Source: Lepraria neglecta (Eukaryota; Ascomycota; Lecanoromycetes; Lecanorales; Stereocaulaceae). Taken from it: 64,000 bases of DNA. The notes under the pieces were generated by a model. The model ran no database searches, was not told the origin of the DNA, and worked only from the letters and a program-made list of their open reading frames with translations. The stretch spans positions 1,123,501 through 1,187,500 of the forward strand of contig CM065646.1 of NCBI GenBank assembly GCA_033220425.1, in the 5' to 3' direction. The number at the start of each line of letters is the position of its first letter. Within the stretch, counting starts at the first letter, position 1. The translations under genes were made by a program, and so were the position numbers. Shown here in pieces: positions 1 through 64,000 of the stretch.

Positions 1-778
1 AGCCGAGAATAAGCGCAGTCTTGGCATCTCCAAGGCTCAATGAATATCATTGGGGTCTAAGATAAAGTACGCACATTGTTTTCACAGAGCATCTCCACGT
101 AGCTCCCTGCGAATCCAAAGCAAATATTGTCAAATCTATCCTTTGCCTCCGACCCTGCGTTTTACGAAAGCGAACTTCTGGGAATTTACCACAACTTTGC
201 GGCAATGTAGCCACTGCACCAACTGTGTTTGAGCGGAAAGAACTGTTCCAATCTCATGAAGGTGACATTTTTGTGAAGGTTTCTGTTTCGAAGATATTTC
301 CTACAGCTCTATCTGAATACTTGTTGATCTACATCATACCCTGATATGCCTCTATGGAGCGCAGAATAAACGCGATTATTGGTAGAATACCTTTAAAATG
401 GATCAGAAGTCAAAATCAAGAGCGTGAATACTGAGGCAAGATTGGTTTAATAAGCTCCAACTGTAACAGCTTCAACTGCAAGAACTCCACACTTGACCAT
501 TACACATGATGGTTCACTTACCATGTGTACCTCCCTTGATCAGCTTGTGCAACTTGTGCCCGAAAAGGTCGTTTGATCTGCTCAAAACAAATTTTCGTTG
601 GTGGCGATGGCACTAAGACCTCGCTCAACAACAGAGAGGCGACTGAGGCGTCTGTACTACAATACTCTTGTATCATGGGTCCTGCGTTGGTGACTAGTAT
701 GTGTTATCAGTCAGTCTGACACAAATTGCAAAGCCCGAACCAAGCTATTGACATATCTTCGACAGAACCCAGATTTCC
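1..778. other. Gene-free left edge
   Basis: I see no convincing coding region here. Reading frames are short and lack a start in good context or splice signals. The last part is the upstream region of the proline-rich repeat gene. Confidence 0.5.
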
Positions 779-784
779 TATAAA
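779..784 (+). promoter_or_regulatory. TATA box of the proline-rich repeat gene
   Basis: TATAAA lies about 135 bases before the ATG. It is followed by a pyrimidine-rich stretch and then an A/C-rich, G-poor leader ending in ATCAAGATG. This is the usual layout of a well expressed filamentous-fungal promoter and supports the small ORF downstream as a real gene. Confidence 0.5.
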
Positions 785-915
785 TTTAGTTTCTTCTTCT
801 CTCTCAAACTCCTTTACAACCCTCACCATCAATCAAATCACACCAAAAAACCTCAACACCATCACATACAAACAAAATCATCCAACAACTACACGAAACA
901 TAAAGAACCATCAAG

Positions 916-1320
916 ATGTCGAGCGCACTGAAAGCTCATACCCTTCGCTACTCGTCGAGAATGCCGCGGTCCGGCCGAGCTGCCTCTTATCTTCCGGGTA
1001 CTGATGGTCATCCGCTGTCTCATGGTAAGTCAATACAAGCTCTCGCCCTACATTTGCTGAATAACACCTATGAAGCATGTCACCACGGACCTAATCCAAA
1101 CCCCCCTGATCCTGATCCCATACCCGGCCCACCACCGCCATGGGAATCGCATTTGATAACCGGACGTCACCACGGTCCAGATCTTAATGGTCCAGATCCT
1201 ATACCTGGTCCACCACCCCCCTGGGAGATGCGTTTGCCGACTCACATTTGTCAAACATACTACCACGGCCCTGATCCCATTCCCGGCCCACCAGCGCCAT
1301 GGGCGATGCAAGTTGTCTAA
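916..1320 (+). CDS. Small proline-rich repeat protein, HHGP...GPDPIPGPPPPWE repeats
   Basis: I do not recognise this gene. Start ATG is in the context ATCAAGATG after a TATA box and a leader typical of fungal mRNAs. A likely 51-nt intron spans 1025-1075 (GTAAGT donor, GCTGAAT branch, AAG acceptor). Its length is a multiple of three and it has no stop, so spliced product is 117 residues and unspliced 134. The N-terminal ~36 residues are rich in Ser and Arg without acidic residues, compatible with a mitochondrial presequence; no secretory signal is seen. The rest is three repeats starting HHGP (YHGP in the third) and ending in GPDPIPGPPPPWE or a close variant. Repeat copies differ mainly at third codon positions, which argues that the peptide is selected. 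No Kex2 KR sites separate the repeats, and no peptide-modifying enzyme gene is adjacent. Function unknown. Confidence 0.6.
   Translation: MSSALKAHTLRYSSRMPRSGRAASYLPGTDGHPLSHGKSIQALALHLLNNTYEACHHGPNPNPPDPDPIPGPPPPWESHLITGRHHGPDLNGPDPIPGPPPPWEMRLPTHICQTYYHGPDPIPGPPAPWAMQVV
1081..1305 (+). repeat. Three in-frame peptide repeats of the proline-rich gene
   Basis: Copies lie at about 1081-1146, 1168-1227 and 1261-1305, each preceded by a different linker. The 11-codon block DPIPGPPPPWE has six synonymous and no amino-acid differences between copies 1 and 2. Copy 3 is shorter, lacking the middle Asn/Pro segment, and has two replacements (second-last Pro block to Ala, final Glu to Ala). Confidence 0.8.
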
Positions 1321-1562
1321 AATCCGGATATTTGAGCCCAATTCTGGCGAGAAGGCCGTTCTATGAGTGTAGAACCGCAAGTCTTGGGCTCAAGGGAAGC
1401 TACAAAGAGGACTTTTCTAACTCAATCAACAGTTGCCCAATTTTGAGGGCTTTCATGCATGCTCTTGCGAAGGTTGGCACCCGTCATGGGAGCCAGAATA
1501 GTGAAATAATGTACACATTTGTTCAAGCATGATATTCATAAACACAGTTGTCGAGTGGATCG

Positions 1563-2045
1563 AAGCTGCGACTGCTGTCTACAAGCAATTACTTAAGTCA
1601 TCAATACATCAATTTAGAGTAAGGCGAAGCTGTGAACATGGCACTCAGCTGGCCATGTGGACTGTGACTGTAGCATTCAATTGGAAATCTCGGCAGTAGA
1701 CACACCATAAGTGGATGTATCAGAGCTGCGCACCCAATCGAAAACTGAAGCTCAAGACATACCATGATCAAGTACGATGAGGCTGCGAATACCAAATTTA
1801 CGCAAGTACCTAAGCTGTGAGTGCGTTATTATGGGTTAGAATAAAACTGCAAACATAACAATCGTTTTATAGTTTGAACTGTGAGTGCCTTCTGATCGAG
1901 CGGAACCAAGCTGCGAATATTTCACTTATCCAGCGATGAAAGCATTGATTCTTCTTTGATCAAGTAGTACGAAGTTGCAAGTAGGATGTTCTTGCAAGGA
2001 AGAAAGTTGCGAAAATGGGTATTGATTGCTTACAAGAGCTGCTTA
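1563..2045. repeat. Degenerate ~32-bp tandem repeat (minisatellite relic)
   Basis: The motif AAGCTGCGAAT and its variants recur near 1563, 1627, 1724, 1780, 1812, 1845, 1877, 1908, 1971, 2003 and 2037. Most gaps are one, two or three times ~32 bases. Several copies share a longer core, roughly TGATCAAGTA followed by CGAAGCTGCGAAT. The array fills the space between the proline-rich gene and the 3' end of RSM22 and may overlap the 3' UTRs. Confidence 0.55.
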
Positions 2046-2082
2046 ATACTGTACAGATGATGGAGGAGAGAGAGAAAGAACA

Positions 2083-4449
2083 TCAATAGTCCTTTTGCAC
2101 TTTCCTCTTCCCCTTATCCCTCTTCGGGGACTTCCGATACTTAGCCCTAGGGGCCCTTGGAACCCTATCTTCCATGCCCTCCTCCTCAGCGCTAAGAACA
2201 TCTCTCGTCTGCTTTTTGGACTTCTTCAGGCCCACCCTAATATTGCGTTGAATCCTGGTCTTGGCGCCCAAAGCCCATAGGTCTCCCCATTTCGACTTCC
2301 GTGCATCTCGATAGGCCTGTTTGCTGAACGATTTGGGCACTGTCCAGCGTTCTATCTTGCCTGCAGGGGTGCAGAGGTCGAGTATCACATGGCCGCGTCG
2401 CTTGATTGGTGGAAGGATGGTGCGAGGCAAGCTGTGGGTGCTCACGTGCGGAACACTAGGCTGAGTGTTCTGCGTTTGATCCTCAGTAGTCTCAGACTCC
2501 ATATCCCCTTCTTCATATCCTTCGAACGCTGCATCCGTTGCTGGTTGGCCTTGTACAATACCATCGATCTCCCTCTGATCCACGCCACGCTGCAAAGCGA
2601 CGTAGCTGAAGAGTATGTCTTCGTGATTGCGTTCTTGTCGACCAATAATACGTTGCAGATAGTGGGGACGTACGTAGCGCTGCAAGAAATGACAGTAGTC
2701 CTTTCGTCCTTGGCTTGAGCCAGCAGTGATATACATTGGGCACTTTCCGTGATTCGTGCATGGAGCAATGATCATACCCTTCTCCTTAGGACCAAAACGG
2801 TTCTCCGATGCGTCTTCGATAGTATGTTCAACTTCCTCGGCACCGGGAGAGGCAATGTGGTACTTCAAAAGCGTTTCTCTAGCGCCAGCTATAAGCTCGA
2901 AGCCGCTGGGTACACCTTTCTCCATCAAAATGAGCACCCCGCCCCTTGGGTCCAGTAAGGACCAGAAATTCTGGACTTGATTCTTCCGCATGTAGTCTTC
3001 TTTCAGAGTCCACAGAGTGTGTGGAGCAAGGATAACATCGTATTGCTTTCTTGGTTGAGGATTGGTCGACTCGAGGGAGGGATGATCTCGTGATGGATTA
3101 TAGTCTGGAAGGCGTGGAATAAACGTAGTGTCCTCCAATAGATGGCTGACACGATTTCGTAGGGCGGCAGATCCAGTTACCACAGTCGACTTTCCGTACG
3201 GAACTTGTTTGCCATGGGGTGCGCCACCAGAATGCATGAGTTCCCATTCAGCACGAAGGATCTCTCGCCAGGCAAGGATACCAGCTCCTCCTGCGCCAGC
3301 ATCTAATATGCGAGGACCATCTCCTTTTCGCATAAGATTACGTAGCCATTCTGATCCAAGGCGCTTGCGGACCTCTACTATTGTGCTCATAATAGTGGCA
3401 TAGGCCCCAGGCATAACCGCAGCCATGTAGGCATTAGCCTCCATCTCGCCCATCTGGAATTGAGATGCTTGTAATGCAATGGGCTGCTGCTTGACATGAG
3501 CTCTTGGTAGGGTTGCAGTGGAGTTCGGTAGTCCAGGTCCACCAAAAGTCTTCAGTGCCATCTCCGTAAGGTGCTTGTTGGAGGCATCGGAAAGAAGTGC
3601 TGTGATTGGATCAACAACGGTATCTTTAGATATCTGAATCGTAGCTGGTGAGGTGCCAAAGCGTCCAGCAGCCGTCAACGGATGCGTCCTCACGGAATCG
3701 CCTCTGACAGAATCCCGGTCTTCCTCCTCAAATTCCTGAACGTCTTCATCCTCGAGGTCCAAGTCGTCTATCAAATAATCTTCCTCTAGCCCTTCTCCAG
3801 TAGTAGGTTCTTGCACCGTCCGGGCCTCATCAACCTCTTTTACTATTTCTGATGATCTTGCAGCAGCAATGTCTCGAAGTATCGCCATACGCGTTCTAAA
3901 GTCTTCCTGAGTCTGGTTATCTTCCTTAGGAGTTCCTTCGAGGCCATTATCTTCAGCTAGCCCCTCTTCGTTGTAGAGAACCTCCTCCAATCCACCCTCT
4001 GCATTTTCCCTCATGAGCACGTTTTCAGGCAAGTCATCGTCCTCAATTTCCACGCCTTGGAGCAGATCGACATCCTCGGGCGATGTGGTCGCTGATGGCG
4101 GGCCATAGAGTCTTTCATAGATTGTGTACTCTTCAGGGGAAAGGAAGTCTTGTGGCAAGGTCTCTCCAAAAGTCTGCCGCGCCTGACGTACTATCGCCTC
4201 CATCTGCTCTGGCGTTCTCGGCAGGTCGGTCTCGTATATCTCATCTTGATGGACAGAGGCTCTGGATATTCTCCCGGTGCTGAAGACGCGTGTATGGGAC
4301 TGCAGTCCTCGTCGATATCCATGTTGAATCAGGATTTTGCTCCCATGTCCAGGCACCCTAGTTGTGGACGAGAATCCATTCGTAAAGAGCGAAAGAAGCT
4401 GGGACGAGCATGAACGACAAATACGCTGTCTTACAAGAGGAACGAGCAT
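2083..4449 (-). CDS. RSM22: Mitochondrial small-subunit ribosome factor Rsm22 (METTL17 family)
   Basis: Single-exon protein of 788 residues. It begins with an Arg/Ser-rich mitochondrial presequence (MLVPLVRQRICRSCSS...) and a long acidic linker (about residues 150-250). The methyltransferase-like fold follows, with a glycine-rich SAM-site region RILDAGAGGAGILAW near residue 390. Further on is the cysteine motif CTNHGKCPMY and then DYCHFLQRY, the conserved Cys cluster of Rsm22/METTL17 proteins, known in the family to hold an Fe-S cluster. The C-terminus is very basic, as expected for rRNA contact. Family members are needed for mitochondrial small-subunit assembly and translation. The first ATG is used because the presequence starts immediately. 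Length is usual for filamentous fungi. Confidence 0.93.
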   Translation of the reverse strand: MLVPLVRQRICRSCSSQLLSLFTNGFSSTTRVPGHGSKILIQHGYRRGLQSHTRVFSTGRISRASVHQDEIYETDLPRTPEQMEAIVRQARQTFGETLPQDFLSPEEYTIYERLYGPPSATTSPEDVDLLQGVEIEDDDLPENVLMRENAEGGLEEVLYNEEGLAEDNGLEGTPKEDNQTQEDFRTRMAILRDIAAARSSEIVKEVDEARTVQEPTTGEGLEEDYLIDDLDLEDEDVQEFEEEDRDSVRGDSVRTHPLTAAGRFGTSPATIQISKDTVVDPITALLSDASNKHLTEMALKTFGGPGLPNSTATLPRAHVKQQPIALQASQFQMGEMEANAYMAAVMPGAYATIMSTIVEVRKRLGSEWLRNLMRKGDGPRILDAGAGGAGILAWREILRAEWELMHSGGAPHGKQVPYGKSTVVTGSAALRNRVSHLLEDTTFIPRLPDYNPSRDHPSLESTNPQPRKQYDVILAPHTLWTLKEDYMRKNQVQNFWSLLDPRGGVLILMEKGVPSGFELIAGARETLLKYHIASPGAEEVEHTIEDASENRFGPKEKGMIIAPCTNHGKCPMYITAGSSQGRKDYCHFLQRYVRPHYLQRIIGRQERNHEDILFSYVALQRGVDQREIDGIVQGQPATDAAFEGYEEGDMESETTEDQTQNTQPSVPHVSTHSLPRTILPPIKRRGHVILDLCTPAGKIERWTVPKSFSKQAYRDARKSKWGDLWALGAKTRIQRNIRVGLKKSKKQTRDVLSAEEEGMEDRVPRAPRAKYRKSPKRDKGKRKVQKDY

Positions 4450-5654
4450 CCTAGGATCGTGGATTTGACCTAGCAGAAGTGGTCGTTCAGCGGAAATATT
4501 TTGGAGCTGTACCTTGGCGCAATAGCATACCTATTTAGGCCCACCTATAGGGCTGAGGCCTACACATTGAATTTTTTCCTTGTTAATATCGACTAATCTA
4601 CTAATTATATCCACTTAAAGTACTCCTATCTACTCCTACCATGAAGGGGTACAGGTGACATTCTGTCTATAGGGCTCTTGACTTGTTGAGAAGGTTGCTA
4701 TGTTCCATCTCTCTCTATATTAAAGGAGGAGGCCTGCGCTGGTACGATGCCTGCTCGCTGTACCAGTCTACTCTACCACAGTATCATAGGGCTTCTTTCG
4801 GTGGTACTTTCGGGGCTGCTTTCGGGTAACTCTGCCTATTTATATAGTGGTTGAATAGGGTTGGAAGGTATAGAATACGAAGAGTTTAGTGGTTGTGGGT
4901 ACTAATTTAGGGGCTCGCTTATGGGGCTCGCTTATGGGGTCCCCATGAACTTATTTTTTGTTCTTGACGAGGAAGCGAAGCTAGGCCAGCCGCTTTTTGC
5001 TATTCGAGGGTCGAGGCTGCATCATAAAGACGAGAAACGGATACTCTGCTAGGTCATGGGATAGCTAGAAAACTGCCACAATACTACTATTCCTGTAATT
5101 GTCTATCTAGTACGACTCGAGACCCCAAGGAGGAGAGCATATAAATTGAAAAGTAGGTGTGCTACTCAGTCTTCCCTTTCGCGGAGCGGTCTTCCTATGA
5201 ACAGAAACCCCTGTTAAGCACTGCTAGGGCTTGCTGTGCAAGTTCTCTGGCAGGAGCAATGGCACCGAGATAAAGAGTTGTCGAAGCGAGCGAGTCATGT
5301 CCAGCTTTAATGGTTTGAGTATTTGTTAGGGCTGTTCAGTCTATTACGGGCTAAATACTATAATGGTGCATTGATTTATTACCTCGCGAGCTCTGAGAAT
5401 AGATTTTGTTCGATAAACTGCAGCGTATAGGGAGTACTTGAGTATAGATCTTTCTTCAGGAGGGATGGGAGTAATTCACCGTTTAATCAGACAAGATCTG
5501 CGTTATAGCGGTTACTTACATCTCGAGATAATACAAAGATAATATAATAAATCGTGACATGGAACAAAGAACAAATGAGATCTCGGATGCTGCCAAAGTA
5601 AGACCAAGAACGACAAGCATCATTACGGTCGCTCCCTTCTGTCACTGGGTTGCC
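4450..5654. other. Gene-free, repeat-like AT-rich stretch
   Basis: No open gene is visible. Around 4527-4575 the block CCTATAGGGCTGAG followed by ACATTGAATT resembles the end and subterminal sequence of the mariner element at 18.2 kb, so part of this is probably a decayed relative. Two direct copies of GGGGCTCGCTTAT lie near 4912-4940. On the minus strand near 5230-5335 a short frame reads TIKAGHDSLASTTLYLG, a weak echo of a tyrosine-recombinase C-terminus. Confidence 0.35.
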
Positions 5655-14954: not shown

Positions 14955-17900
14955 TTATCTATGCTCATCAGTGCATCTCTTCGGCCTCCGCGTACCTCCC
15001 TGGCTCTTCAATATCGACGCCAGGTTATTCATACTCGTCAACGTGTCCGGATGCTCCTTTCCCAGCACCTTCTCCCGTAATTTCAATACTTGTCGGTGCA
15101 TCTCTTCGGCTTCTTCATATTTGCCCTGGTTATCCAGCACCGACGCCAGGTTATTCATGCTCGTCAACGTGTCTGGATGCTCCTTTCCCAGTACCTTCTC
15201 CCGTAATTTCAAGCCTTGTCGGACCAGCTCTTCGGCTTCTTCATATTTGCCTTGGTTATCCAGCACCGACGCCAGGTTATTCATGCTCGTCAACGTGTCT
15301 GGATGCTCCTTTCCCAGTACCTTCTCCCGTAATTTCAAGCCTTGTCGGACCATCTCTTCGGCTTCTTCATATTTGCCCTGCTTATCTAGTACCCACGCCA
15401 GGTTATTCATGCTCGTCAACGTGCCCGGATGCTCCTTTCCCAGCACCTTCTCCTGTTGTTTCAACACTTGTCGGTGCATCTCTTCGGTTTCTTCATATTT
15501 GCCCTGGCTCCTCAATATCGACGCCAGGTTATTCATGCTCATCAACGTGTCCGGATGCTCCTTTCCCAGTACCTTCTCCCGTAATTTTAACACTTGTCGG
15601 ACCATCTCTTCGGCTTCTTCATATTTGCCCTGGTTATCCAGCACCGACGCCAGGTTATTCATGCTCGTCAACGTGTCTGGATGCTCCTTTCCCACCACCT
15701 TCTCCCGTAATTTCAACACTTGTCGGTGCATCTCTTCGGCTTCTTCATATTTGCCCTGGTTGTCCGGCACCAACGCCAGGTTATTTATGCTCATTAACGT
15801 ATCCGGATGCTCCTTTCCCAGCACCTTCTCCTGTAATTTCAACACTTGTCGGTACATCTCTTCGGCTTCTTCATATTTGCCCTGGTTGTACAGCACCGAC
15901 GCCAGGTTATTCATGCTCCTTAACGTATCCGGATGCTCCTTTCCCAGCACCTTCTCCCGTAATTTCAACACTTGTCGGACCATCTCTTCGGCTTCTTCAT
16001 ATTTGCCCTGGAAGTACAGTACCGACGCCAGGTCATTGATGCTCCGCAACGTGTTCGGATGCTCCTTCCCCAGCAACTTCTGATATATCGTCTGCGCTTC
16101 CATAACCTTCTTGTATGCAGCTCCATACCGTCCTTGTGCCTCGTCATAGCTTGAAGCCTTGTGGAGGATATTTGCACGTTGCAACTGACAATTTTCCGTC
16201 CCGAAAACATACTCCAGCACGACCTGGACATGGGGACTGATAGTCTCCCAGGTGACCCAGTTTTCATAATCTTCATTAAGAGGGCAATTGGCAAACACCG
16301 CAGTCAGCGCTTTCTCTTGCCATTCCACCAGAACACGTTGAAGCTCAAGCCATTTTCGGGTTGAAAGCTGCACCAGTCGATGTATGGTAAAGACTGCTCC
16401 ATTTTCTTCTTCGGAAACCAGAGAGAAAGCTTTAAGCGTTCCGATCCCAGTGTCAAAGTCAACTTTACGCTCACCTTCCTGCCGGAGAAGGGTATCTGAA
16501 ATCGCCTGTCGATCCAAGACGGCCATAAGAGACAATATCTCGGCTGCTCGTGGCTTCTGCTTTGTGATCTGGTCAAAAGATATTTGCCAAGTCAGGAAGA
16601 TTGAGTTCTGTATCTCTGGGTCTCTTCCAGGATCGTAGTAGTCTTGTTCTAACAGGTCATTTGCATCCGATTCGCCAGACCGTAGCAGGTCTAGATAATG
16701 TACAAGAGAGACCTCCTCCTCACTGATATATGCAGCGGCCTGGGTGATGGCTAAAGGCAGGAAATTCAGAGTCTCTAAAAGGTCCATCGACGCTGCCTCG
16801 TCCCGTTCACTATTTCTCGGCAATTTGTTTCGCAGCAGTTGCTTTGCATCTTCAGCTTCAAATGGCACAACGGCAACCGGCTTCTCTCGGTTCATCAACC
16901 TCTCTCCAACCCGTCTGTCTCTTGTCGTGACGAGTATGGAGCCAATTGAGCTTCGTGGAATGTAATTGACTAGTGCGGATAACCCTTGCTGTCTGCTATG
17001 TCGTGACGAGCCTTGGCCATTAGCGCCAAACAGCACCTCCTTGTCATCCGCGTTATCTAATACCATAAGCCAAGGGCCGTTGCCATCATCACTGAGCCAC
17101 TCCATAACAATCTCAAGGGTGTTGACATCCGGATCATTGAGTCCAGGTAATTTCAGCTTCCTCCCGATTGCTTTGTACGCCTCATCGAATCGAGCAATGT
17201 TACTGCTATGGACCCAGAACACCTGGCCTTCAGGTTGCTCGTCTTTGTAGCGGTAACAGTATTCGATGGCAATCTGCGACTTACTGTAAGGAGTCAGCTA
17301 GGCCAGACTATCCGAGGTAAGTATGATCTTACCCAACACCTCCGATTCCAGCGAGCACAGCACGACGTTGCTGCTTATTTAATTTCAGCTTGATTTCGTT
17401 CAGGATTTCTGCACGACCGACGAACATGTCGTCGCGATGGAATGGCACCATGAAGACCGGTTTTTGAGGCAGATTTACTGGACTGCCGGTAGAGAGCTGA
17501 GGCGTTTCCCGTATCGGCAATTCCGAGTTACTCGTCGCTTGGTGAAATGTCAACAAGTGGATGTAGTGTTCTAGTATGGAGTTAATTTGCTGAACTTCAT
17601 CGTCGTGGGTAAGACTCTTGATAGCAAGCAGGCGTCTTTGCCAACTCGATGTCTTCTCAGCAGGTACATTCTTATGGAGAATACGTTCAAGCAGCTTGAC
17701 CTGCTCAAGACACCCGTCAACCACCGGCTTGAGCGCATTCGCGGTCGCGTCGTTAAAGTGACCAGCATCGGCCTGCTTTTGCGTGCGTTGAAGCGTATCA
17801 ACGATTAAAGGCAGCTGAACCTTGATACTGCGAAAGGTTTTTGGCACCTCGTTGATGTCTGACTTGAATTCATCCAAGCGGTTGAGAACCTTCGTTCCAA

Positions 17901-62829: not shown

Positions 62830-64000
62830 CTCCTTAAAAACACGGCGCCAAATACCAAAATTCTAACTACGATACCCTTACTCCTATACTCAACGCTCGG
62901 CGCGAGATCTAATTACGACGATTACGTATTATACGTAAAGATTCTCGAAGTTCGTATAGGGGTTTCTAATAGAATACTTATATAAATTAAAAAATAACTT
63001 AAGTAGAAAAATATTCTATTTGTAAAATTAGTCGACGCGTTATTTACTTATCTATACGCCTTAATCCCGCGGTAGAAAGTAAAGATTATATTTAAATAGT
63101 AGAAATCTCGCTCCGAGTATACTTTTTAAGACTAAAATCGATAGTTTTTGTTGCGAGCGCGTATATATAGCAGCTACTATCGTATCGCAAGCCTCAATCG
63201 TTGTATATATAGCAGGCCTTAATAGTACTTCTTAGTACGACTACGTACGTCTTAGCCCGCGTAGTGGCTTGGTACTAGAAGTAATACTAAATATTGTATA
63301 TATATGCTCCTTCTTCTCCTTTAGCTTAGTTATCTTAGTTAATTAATACCTATATAATTCGCTCTATACTAGCTACCTAATACTATAACTAAGCTCCAAA
63401 TTACTTATAAGCTTGTACTAGTTATAACTGCGAGTCGAAACAAAGTAACTATAGCGGTATAGAACCCTGAGTAATCTAAGGACTCCTCTATACCAAAATA
63501 CCCAACCTATAATACCCCCCCCTCGGCGTTCTAATTCGACAACCTATAAGATATATAGTAAGCCCTCGCCCGTAAATCGCGCTCTAAGTAAGTTTCTAGT
63601 ATAGTTTAGCTATATATCGCGTAGTAAGAGTAGGTAGTAATCTATATAAGAGAAGAAGAAGAAATATTAGGATACTAAATCTATATATCCTTAAGTTAAT
63701 AGAGGACTAGCTAAAATATAAGGAGATTATTAATAAGGTATTAAAGATACGGCGTACTTCGGTACTACTAGTAGATATACTAGATAGAGCTAAAGAGGTA
63801 AAGACTACTTAGGAAGTAGTTAGTATAGCTTAGTTATAGTACTAGGCTTAATACTCCCCCCTCGAGTTTTTTAAGATACTAAATAAGCTAAGATATAAGC
63901 GGGATACGGCCCTATATTACTTAGATAAGTAGGATATAATAATTAAGCGAGGATAGAAGGTAGTAAAGATAGGCTATAATACTTAATATTAGAGAAAGGA
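62830..64000. repeat. AT-rich RIP-mutated repeat tract, continues past the window
   Basis: The tract is extremely TA-rich, with CpA and TpG rare but CpG still present, the pattern left by repeat-induced point mutation of CpA. No frame is open for long. The element family cannot be named; it is a fossil, broken in very many places, and runs off the right edge. Confidence 0.75.

Follow-up and report, generated by a model that had tools for sequence, protein, structure and literature searches.

Near the start of the window, the 64-kb stretch of Lepraria neglecta DNA that was analysed as a whole, an open frame of 134 codons is listed at 916-1320 on the plus strand. Taking out a putative intron at 1025-1075 leaves a two-exon gene of 117 codons. 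This is likely an undescribed gene for a proline-rich orphan protein, and its product belongs to a kind, the small disordered proline-repeat protein, that is already familiar; the mechanism proposed for it below is a guess. The features of the locus are as follows.

779..786, plus strand: TATA box TATAAATT, read directly from the letters, putative promoter element
~789-806, plus strand: pyrimidine tract 3' of the TATA box, read directly from the letters
806..915, plus strand: C+A-rich 5' leader, with no ATG from the TATA box to 916, by composition count and from the letters
916..1024, plus strand: exon 1, 36 codons and one base, encoding a basic N-terminus, from the spliced translation
1025..1075, plus strand: putative 51-nt intron, GTAAGT...AAG, from sequence only
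1076..1320, plus strand: exon 2, which holds repeats 1-3 and the stop codon, from the spliced translation
1081..1146, plus strand: repeat 1, HHGPNPNPPDPDPIPGPPPPWE, from the translation and a DNA-level repeat search
1168..1227, plus strand: repeat 2, HHGPDLNGPDPIPGPPPPWE, from the translation and a DNA-level repeat search
1261..1305, plus strand: repeat 3, YHGPDPIPGPPAPWA, shorter and the most divergent, from the translation and a DNA-level repeat search
1331..1394, plus strand: possible 3'-UTR stem-loop with arms TTGAGCCCAA and TTGGGCTCAA, from folding, a lead only

The gene lies in a housekeeping setting between RPN5 and RSM22. RPN5/PSMD12, which encodes a proteasome subunit, is upstream and divergent (PSMD12-CSN4_N, E 3.7e-40), and its first ATG is likely at L005:9879, about 1 kb from the ATG of the repeat gene. 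RSM22 is downstream and convergent (Pfam E 4.5e-30), and its top PDB match is a solved RSM22 (E 2.7e-33). A sirohaem-synthase-like gene was found ~8 kb upstream, where TP_methylase and the sirohaem-synthase central and C-terminal families were matched.

The original prediction described a TATA box and a typical fungal leader in front of the coding region, and both are present. Well-expressed genes of fungi typically have a C+A-rich leader. The C+A content of this leader is 0.827 over the 110 nt before the ATG, and among 127780 windows of 110 nt, taken from both strands of the 64-kb window, only 6 were equally rich, a number which includes the leader itself and its overlapping neighbours. The combination of a TATA box with a leader that is rich in C+A and lacks an ATG supports a real gene. 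The putative intron has a length divisible by three and is free of in-frame stops. The sequence therefore offers no proof of splicing, and retention would yield a 134-residue protein. Measured against RSM22 usage, the synonymous codon choice of the spliced gene pointed neither way (-2.0 bits over 111 codons). For exon 2 the score was near 0 in the gene frame and fell below this in all five alternative frames; this comparison was discounted as evidence because stops are penalised in the other frames.

The 117-residue translation contains three proline-rich repeats, as had been predicted, and these were recovered at the DNA level as three 49-nt copies starting at 1107, 1188, and 1266. The distances from start to start are 81 and 78 nt, which places the repeats 26-27 residues apart with variable linkers between them. 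The motif common to the three is (H/Y)HGP...DPIPGPP(P/A)PW. Repeat 3 lacks both PPPP and the final E, having PAPW in the core and YH in place of HH. Proline accounts for 29 of the 117 residues, and the protein contains eight overlapping PxxP sites, 10 histidines, and two cysteines. Its first 29 residues include five Arg or Lys and no Asp or Glu. Exon 2 (80 residues) was modelled with AlphaFold2 from the single sequence, giving a mean pLDDT of 60.6 and a pTM of 0.14, with two helical turns of three residues each, no helix of four, and no strand of three residues. Such a low-confidence model fits a disordered chain, but it would equally fit any orphan modelled without an alignment and proves nothing on folding.

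The strongest claim of the original prediction concerned the core DPIPGPPPPWE, in which copies 1 and 2 were said to differ by six synonymous and no replacement changes. This count was confirmed, and all six changes fall at codon position 3. Core pair 1-3 has two synonymous and two replacement differences and core pair 2-3 has six and two, in a block of 11 codons with about 8.3-8.7 synonymous and 24.3-24.7 replacement sites. Extending the core by the HHGP head gives synonymous/replacement counts of 8/0 (pair 1-2), 3/3 (pair 1-3), and 8/3 (pair 2-3). Synonymous difference is near saturation in core pairs 1-2 (6 of 8.33 sites) and 2-3 (6 of 8.67), and the copies in these pairs therefore look old, with the peptide kept. 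Judging from the sequences, pair 1-3, which is closer at synonymous sites, could reflect a later duplication or conversion. Outside the core, the spacers of copies 1 and 2 diverge freely; over 28 aligned codons, with about 20 synonymous and 64 replacement sites, the two copies show 13-15 synonymous and 15-17 replacement differences, depending on gap placement.

When six neutral substitutions were simulated in copy 1 at transition weights of 1, 2, and 4, the peptide survived unchanged in 11, 2, and 6 of 100000 runs, respectively, although this simulation is biased in that the block had been chosen for its identical peptide. For this reason, the test was redone in all six frames on the 49-nt alignment, which is chosen by DNA identity. 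In the gene frame, amino-acid differences were found at 3, 6, and 4 of 16 codons for pairs 1-2, 1-3, and 2-3. Random controls were as low in 9 of 4000 cases for pair 1-2, 748 of 4000 for pair 1-3, and 0 of 4000 for pair 2-3, figures which belong to a set of 18 tests with three interdependent pairs and small counts throughout. The claim that the repeats exceed what random DNA would show thus holds for pairs 1-2 and 2-3 but fails for pair 1-3, where no frame-specific conservation was found in the gene frame. Over the same 49-nt pairs, third codon positions, read in the forward frame, account for 7 of 11 (1-2), 6 of 12 (1-3), and 11 of 15 (2-3) differences.

In the other two forward frames of this alignment, residue retention was not above random. 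One reverse frame was mildly low in all pairs (474, 242, and 222 of 4000 controls) and for pair 1-3 was below the gene frame, which may be a shadow of the forward-frame signal. A reverse-strand open frame at 1048-1380 was also considered as the coding unit and rejected; it has no Pfam match, and forward-frame third positions carry 6 of 6 differences in core pair 1-2, along with the shares given above for the 49-nt pairs. For this tiny orphan gene, selection at the protein level is suggested by the internal repeats alone and not by orthologues.

No known family had come to mind in the original prediction, and none was matched by the 117-residue protein in Pfam, NCBIfam, or PDB at a maximum E of 10, a setting at which most matches with E above about 0.1 are still removed by the HMMER filters. 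Neither protein search nor motif patterns revealed a second copy in the genome (42.0 Mb, 11 contigs), where the searches for paralogues score best candidates only. In fact, both genomic matches to GPPPPWE and all three to DPIPGPP lie inside the gene itself. The looser pattern PGPPxPW has six matches, three in the gene and three elsewhere, compared with two for the reversed control; being close to this control, the matches are at chance level. No relative was confirmed in two scans of a viral collection (4 and 23 pattern stretches) or two scans of a prokaryotic collection (67 and 14 stretches), collections which are non-fungal and silent on fungal orthologues. Similarly, no known RNA was found with Rfam over window positions 1-5000 at E up to 1, and a literature search with the peptide strings returned titles on other subjects. 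Should the motif be kept in orthologues, the gene would define a new family of fungal proteins with proline-tryptophan repeats, for which a partner or an effect on translation would be directly testable.

Taken together, a real gene under selection is given a probability of about 0.85. What its product does is far more tentative, and the preferred suggestion, a multivalent polyproline scaffold, is put forward as a possibility that falls short of an even chance, with a binding mechanism that is wholly conjectural. The gene would be spliced and, as far as searched, single-copy, and its expressed product would be small, largely disordered, and non-secreted. Each repeat would probably form a rigid polyproline-II rod, DPIPGPPPPW, with tryptophan at its end and the histidine pair at its head. 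Each rod is predicted to dock weakly on a partner, at a surface that recognises proline, and avidity would arise from having three such rods separated by variable linkers. The scaffold is supported by the residues kept frame-specifically in pairs 1-2 and 2-3 while the spacers are free, and by the number of prolines and PxxP sites; against it stand the lack of such conservation in pair 1-3 and the incomplete core of repeat 3. The class ligand patterns tried for WW, SH3, GYF, and EVH1 domains (PPxY, [RK]xxPxxP, PxxPx[RK], PPG with a large hydrophobic residue after it, and [FWYL]PPxP) had 0 matches each in the protein. Consequently, the partner cannot be tied to any one domain. The protein resembles the proline-rich disordered scaffolds that carry polyproline-II ligands in its proline-rich repeats and its PxxP sites with an aromatic residue. 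It is unlike them in having neither the class-defining patterns nor a sequence match in Pfam or PDB.

Several other readings were weighed against the scaffold. A chance open frame or a non-functional young gene would account for the empty searches of Pfam, NCBIfam, PDB, and the viral and prokaryotic collections, for the uninformative codon score, and for pair 1-3. This reading is nevertheless unlikely, given that pairs 1-2 and 2-3 are conserved in a frame-specific way and that promoter, leader, and intron anatomy is present. There is likewise a small chance that the product is a mitochondrial protein, whose basic, acid-free N-terminus would be a cleavable presequence and whose proline repeats would act inside the organelle. 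The charge of residues 1-29 and a hydrophobic moment of up to 0.78 at residues 11-21 are consistent with this, but 11-residue windows over residues 1-14 show a moment of 0.12-0.13 only, and a search of PDB chains with E up to 10 found no relative. Histidine and cysteine might instead make the protein a metal binder, in which HHGP and nearby residues (SHACHHGP, GRHHGP, and HICQTYYHGP) hold copper, zinc, or nickel. The content of both residues and the HH pairs heading repeats at residues 39 and 68 fit such a role; however, it is rather improbable, as repeat 3 carries YH for HH and most residues common to the three copies belong to the proline-tryptophan core, with one histidine among the common residues. 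A role as precursor to short peptides, either secreted or modified, has in its favour three similar units with variable spacers between them. Kex2-processed repeat proteins (KEPs) have been mined, as outlined in PMC7329392, with two requirements: a signal peptide for the ER, and three or more repeats set between dibasic sites. The original prediction held that the lack of KR sites and of a signal peptide argues against a standard dikaritin-type precursor, and the protein indeed has no KR, KK, RK, or RR among its 117 residues and no hydrophobic N-terminus, the best 17-residue Kyte-Doolittle mean for windows starting at residues 1-25 being -0.12. UstYa (DUF3328, PF11807) has 42 matches in the genome, counted exon by exon and therefore a lower bound, but none is near the gene; the nearest match found ends at C1:428093 and the gene starts at C1:1124416, ~0.70 Mb apart. 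With no signal peptide, Kex2 site, or UstYa neighbour, and in housekeeping surroundings, a KEP or dikaritin precursor was rejected: the protein is like these in being a fungal product with three similar short repeats and unlike them in all of these respects. Even a precursor that dispenses with Kex2 and a signal peptide is very unlikely, given the absence of dibasic sites, the N-terminus, the neighbours RPN5 and RSM22, and the distance to UstYa. Borosin enzymes are akin to the TP_methylase family. A borosin-like precursor was also rejected; the TP_methylase gene upstream also matches sirohaem-synthase families and was read as a housekeeping enzyme. As a separate observation, several of the UstYa matches lie close together (for example, near 3.98 Mb on C2, 0.52 Mb on C5, and 0.1 Mb on C10), and several cyclised-peptide clusters could exist elsewhere in the genome. 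The 42 UstYa matches, together with an NB/TPR-type gene, would fit a filamentous ascomycete.

A further alternative places the function in translation itself. PDP is an eIF5A-sensitive pause motif, and PPPPW, perhaps along with PDP, would make ribosomes pause at low levels of eIF5A hypusination or of polyamines, so that the nascent chain is a regulator and pausing its function. PPW is found at residues 57 and 84 and PPP at 55-56 and 82-83, each in two of the three repeats, and PDP at 47, 49, 76, and 102. That the amino acids are selected and the codons free also fits a nascent-peptide signal. A review assigns to PPW the control that polyamines exert, via eIF5A, on the AZIN1 upstream coding region (PMC8705083), and a preprint describes eIF5A-dependent stalling at a proline stretch of yeast Tim50 (PMC10769225). 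Like the Tim50 mRNA and the upstream coding region of AZIN1, as these sources present them, the repeat gene carries PPP/PPW-type sequence that eIF5A helps ribosomes pass. It is unlike them in having three repeats with further conserved residues, the third without PPW but with PAPW. HHGP and DPIPG would be left unexplained by a simple proline pause, and no regulated frame was identified, although plus-strand open frames are listed downstream at 1299-1532 (77 codons) and 1529-1699 (56 codons). Pausing is for these reasons highly improbable. More speculative still is a translated sensor, in which PPPPW-type repeats are kept for eIF5A- and polyamine-dependent pausing, the output or the fate of the mRNA reports hypusine status, and the stem-loop and a 32-nt array belong to the same transcript; its chances are very slim.

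The possible stem-loop lies directly 3' of the stop codon, and the 10-nt ends of its arms are perfectly complementary. Positions 1330-1395, a stretch chosen after the inverted repeat had been seen, fold with -27.7 kcal/mol (z -3.9, 0 of 200 shuffles). The opposite strand folds about equally (-25.7 kcal/mol, z -4.5), and the signal fades in longer folds (z -1.9 and 12 of 200 at 1321-1420; z -1.0 and 35 of 200 at 1321-1500). A 3'-UTR element at 1331-1394 is thus a lead only. Further downstream, the convergent intergenic space before RSM22 contains a degenerate array with a 32-nt period and a core like AAGCTGYGAA (window 1473-2112). Of 47 sliding windows placed over 1-3200, 7 had 32 as their best period, and Tandem Repeats Finder at its default score did not list the array. 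Over 1540-2060, a stretch chosen post hoc, the score was 0.356, compared with a maximum of 0.305 in 500 simulations. A DNA search of the genome with 1540-2040 returned only itself.

Elsewhere in the window, a TPR-type (NB/TPR) gene was found on the minus strand at 14955-17222 (TPR_12, E 4.9e-149). It contains a tandem array with a 126-nt unit at 15015-16081 (8.5 copies, 90% match), and an open frame of 370 codons lies on the strand opposite this array. The last kilobase of the window (63001-64000) has a G+C content of 0.34, compared with 0.436-0.574 in the other 63 one-kilobase windows.
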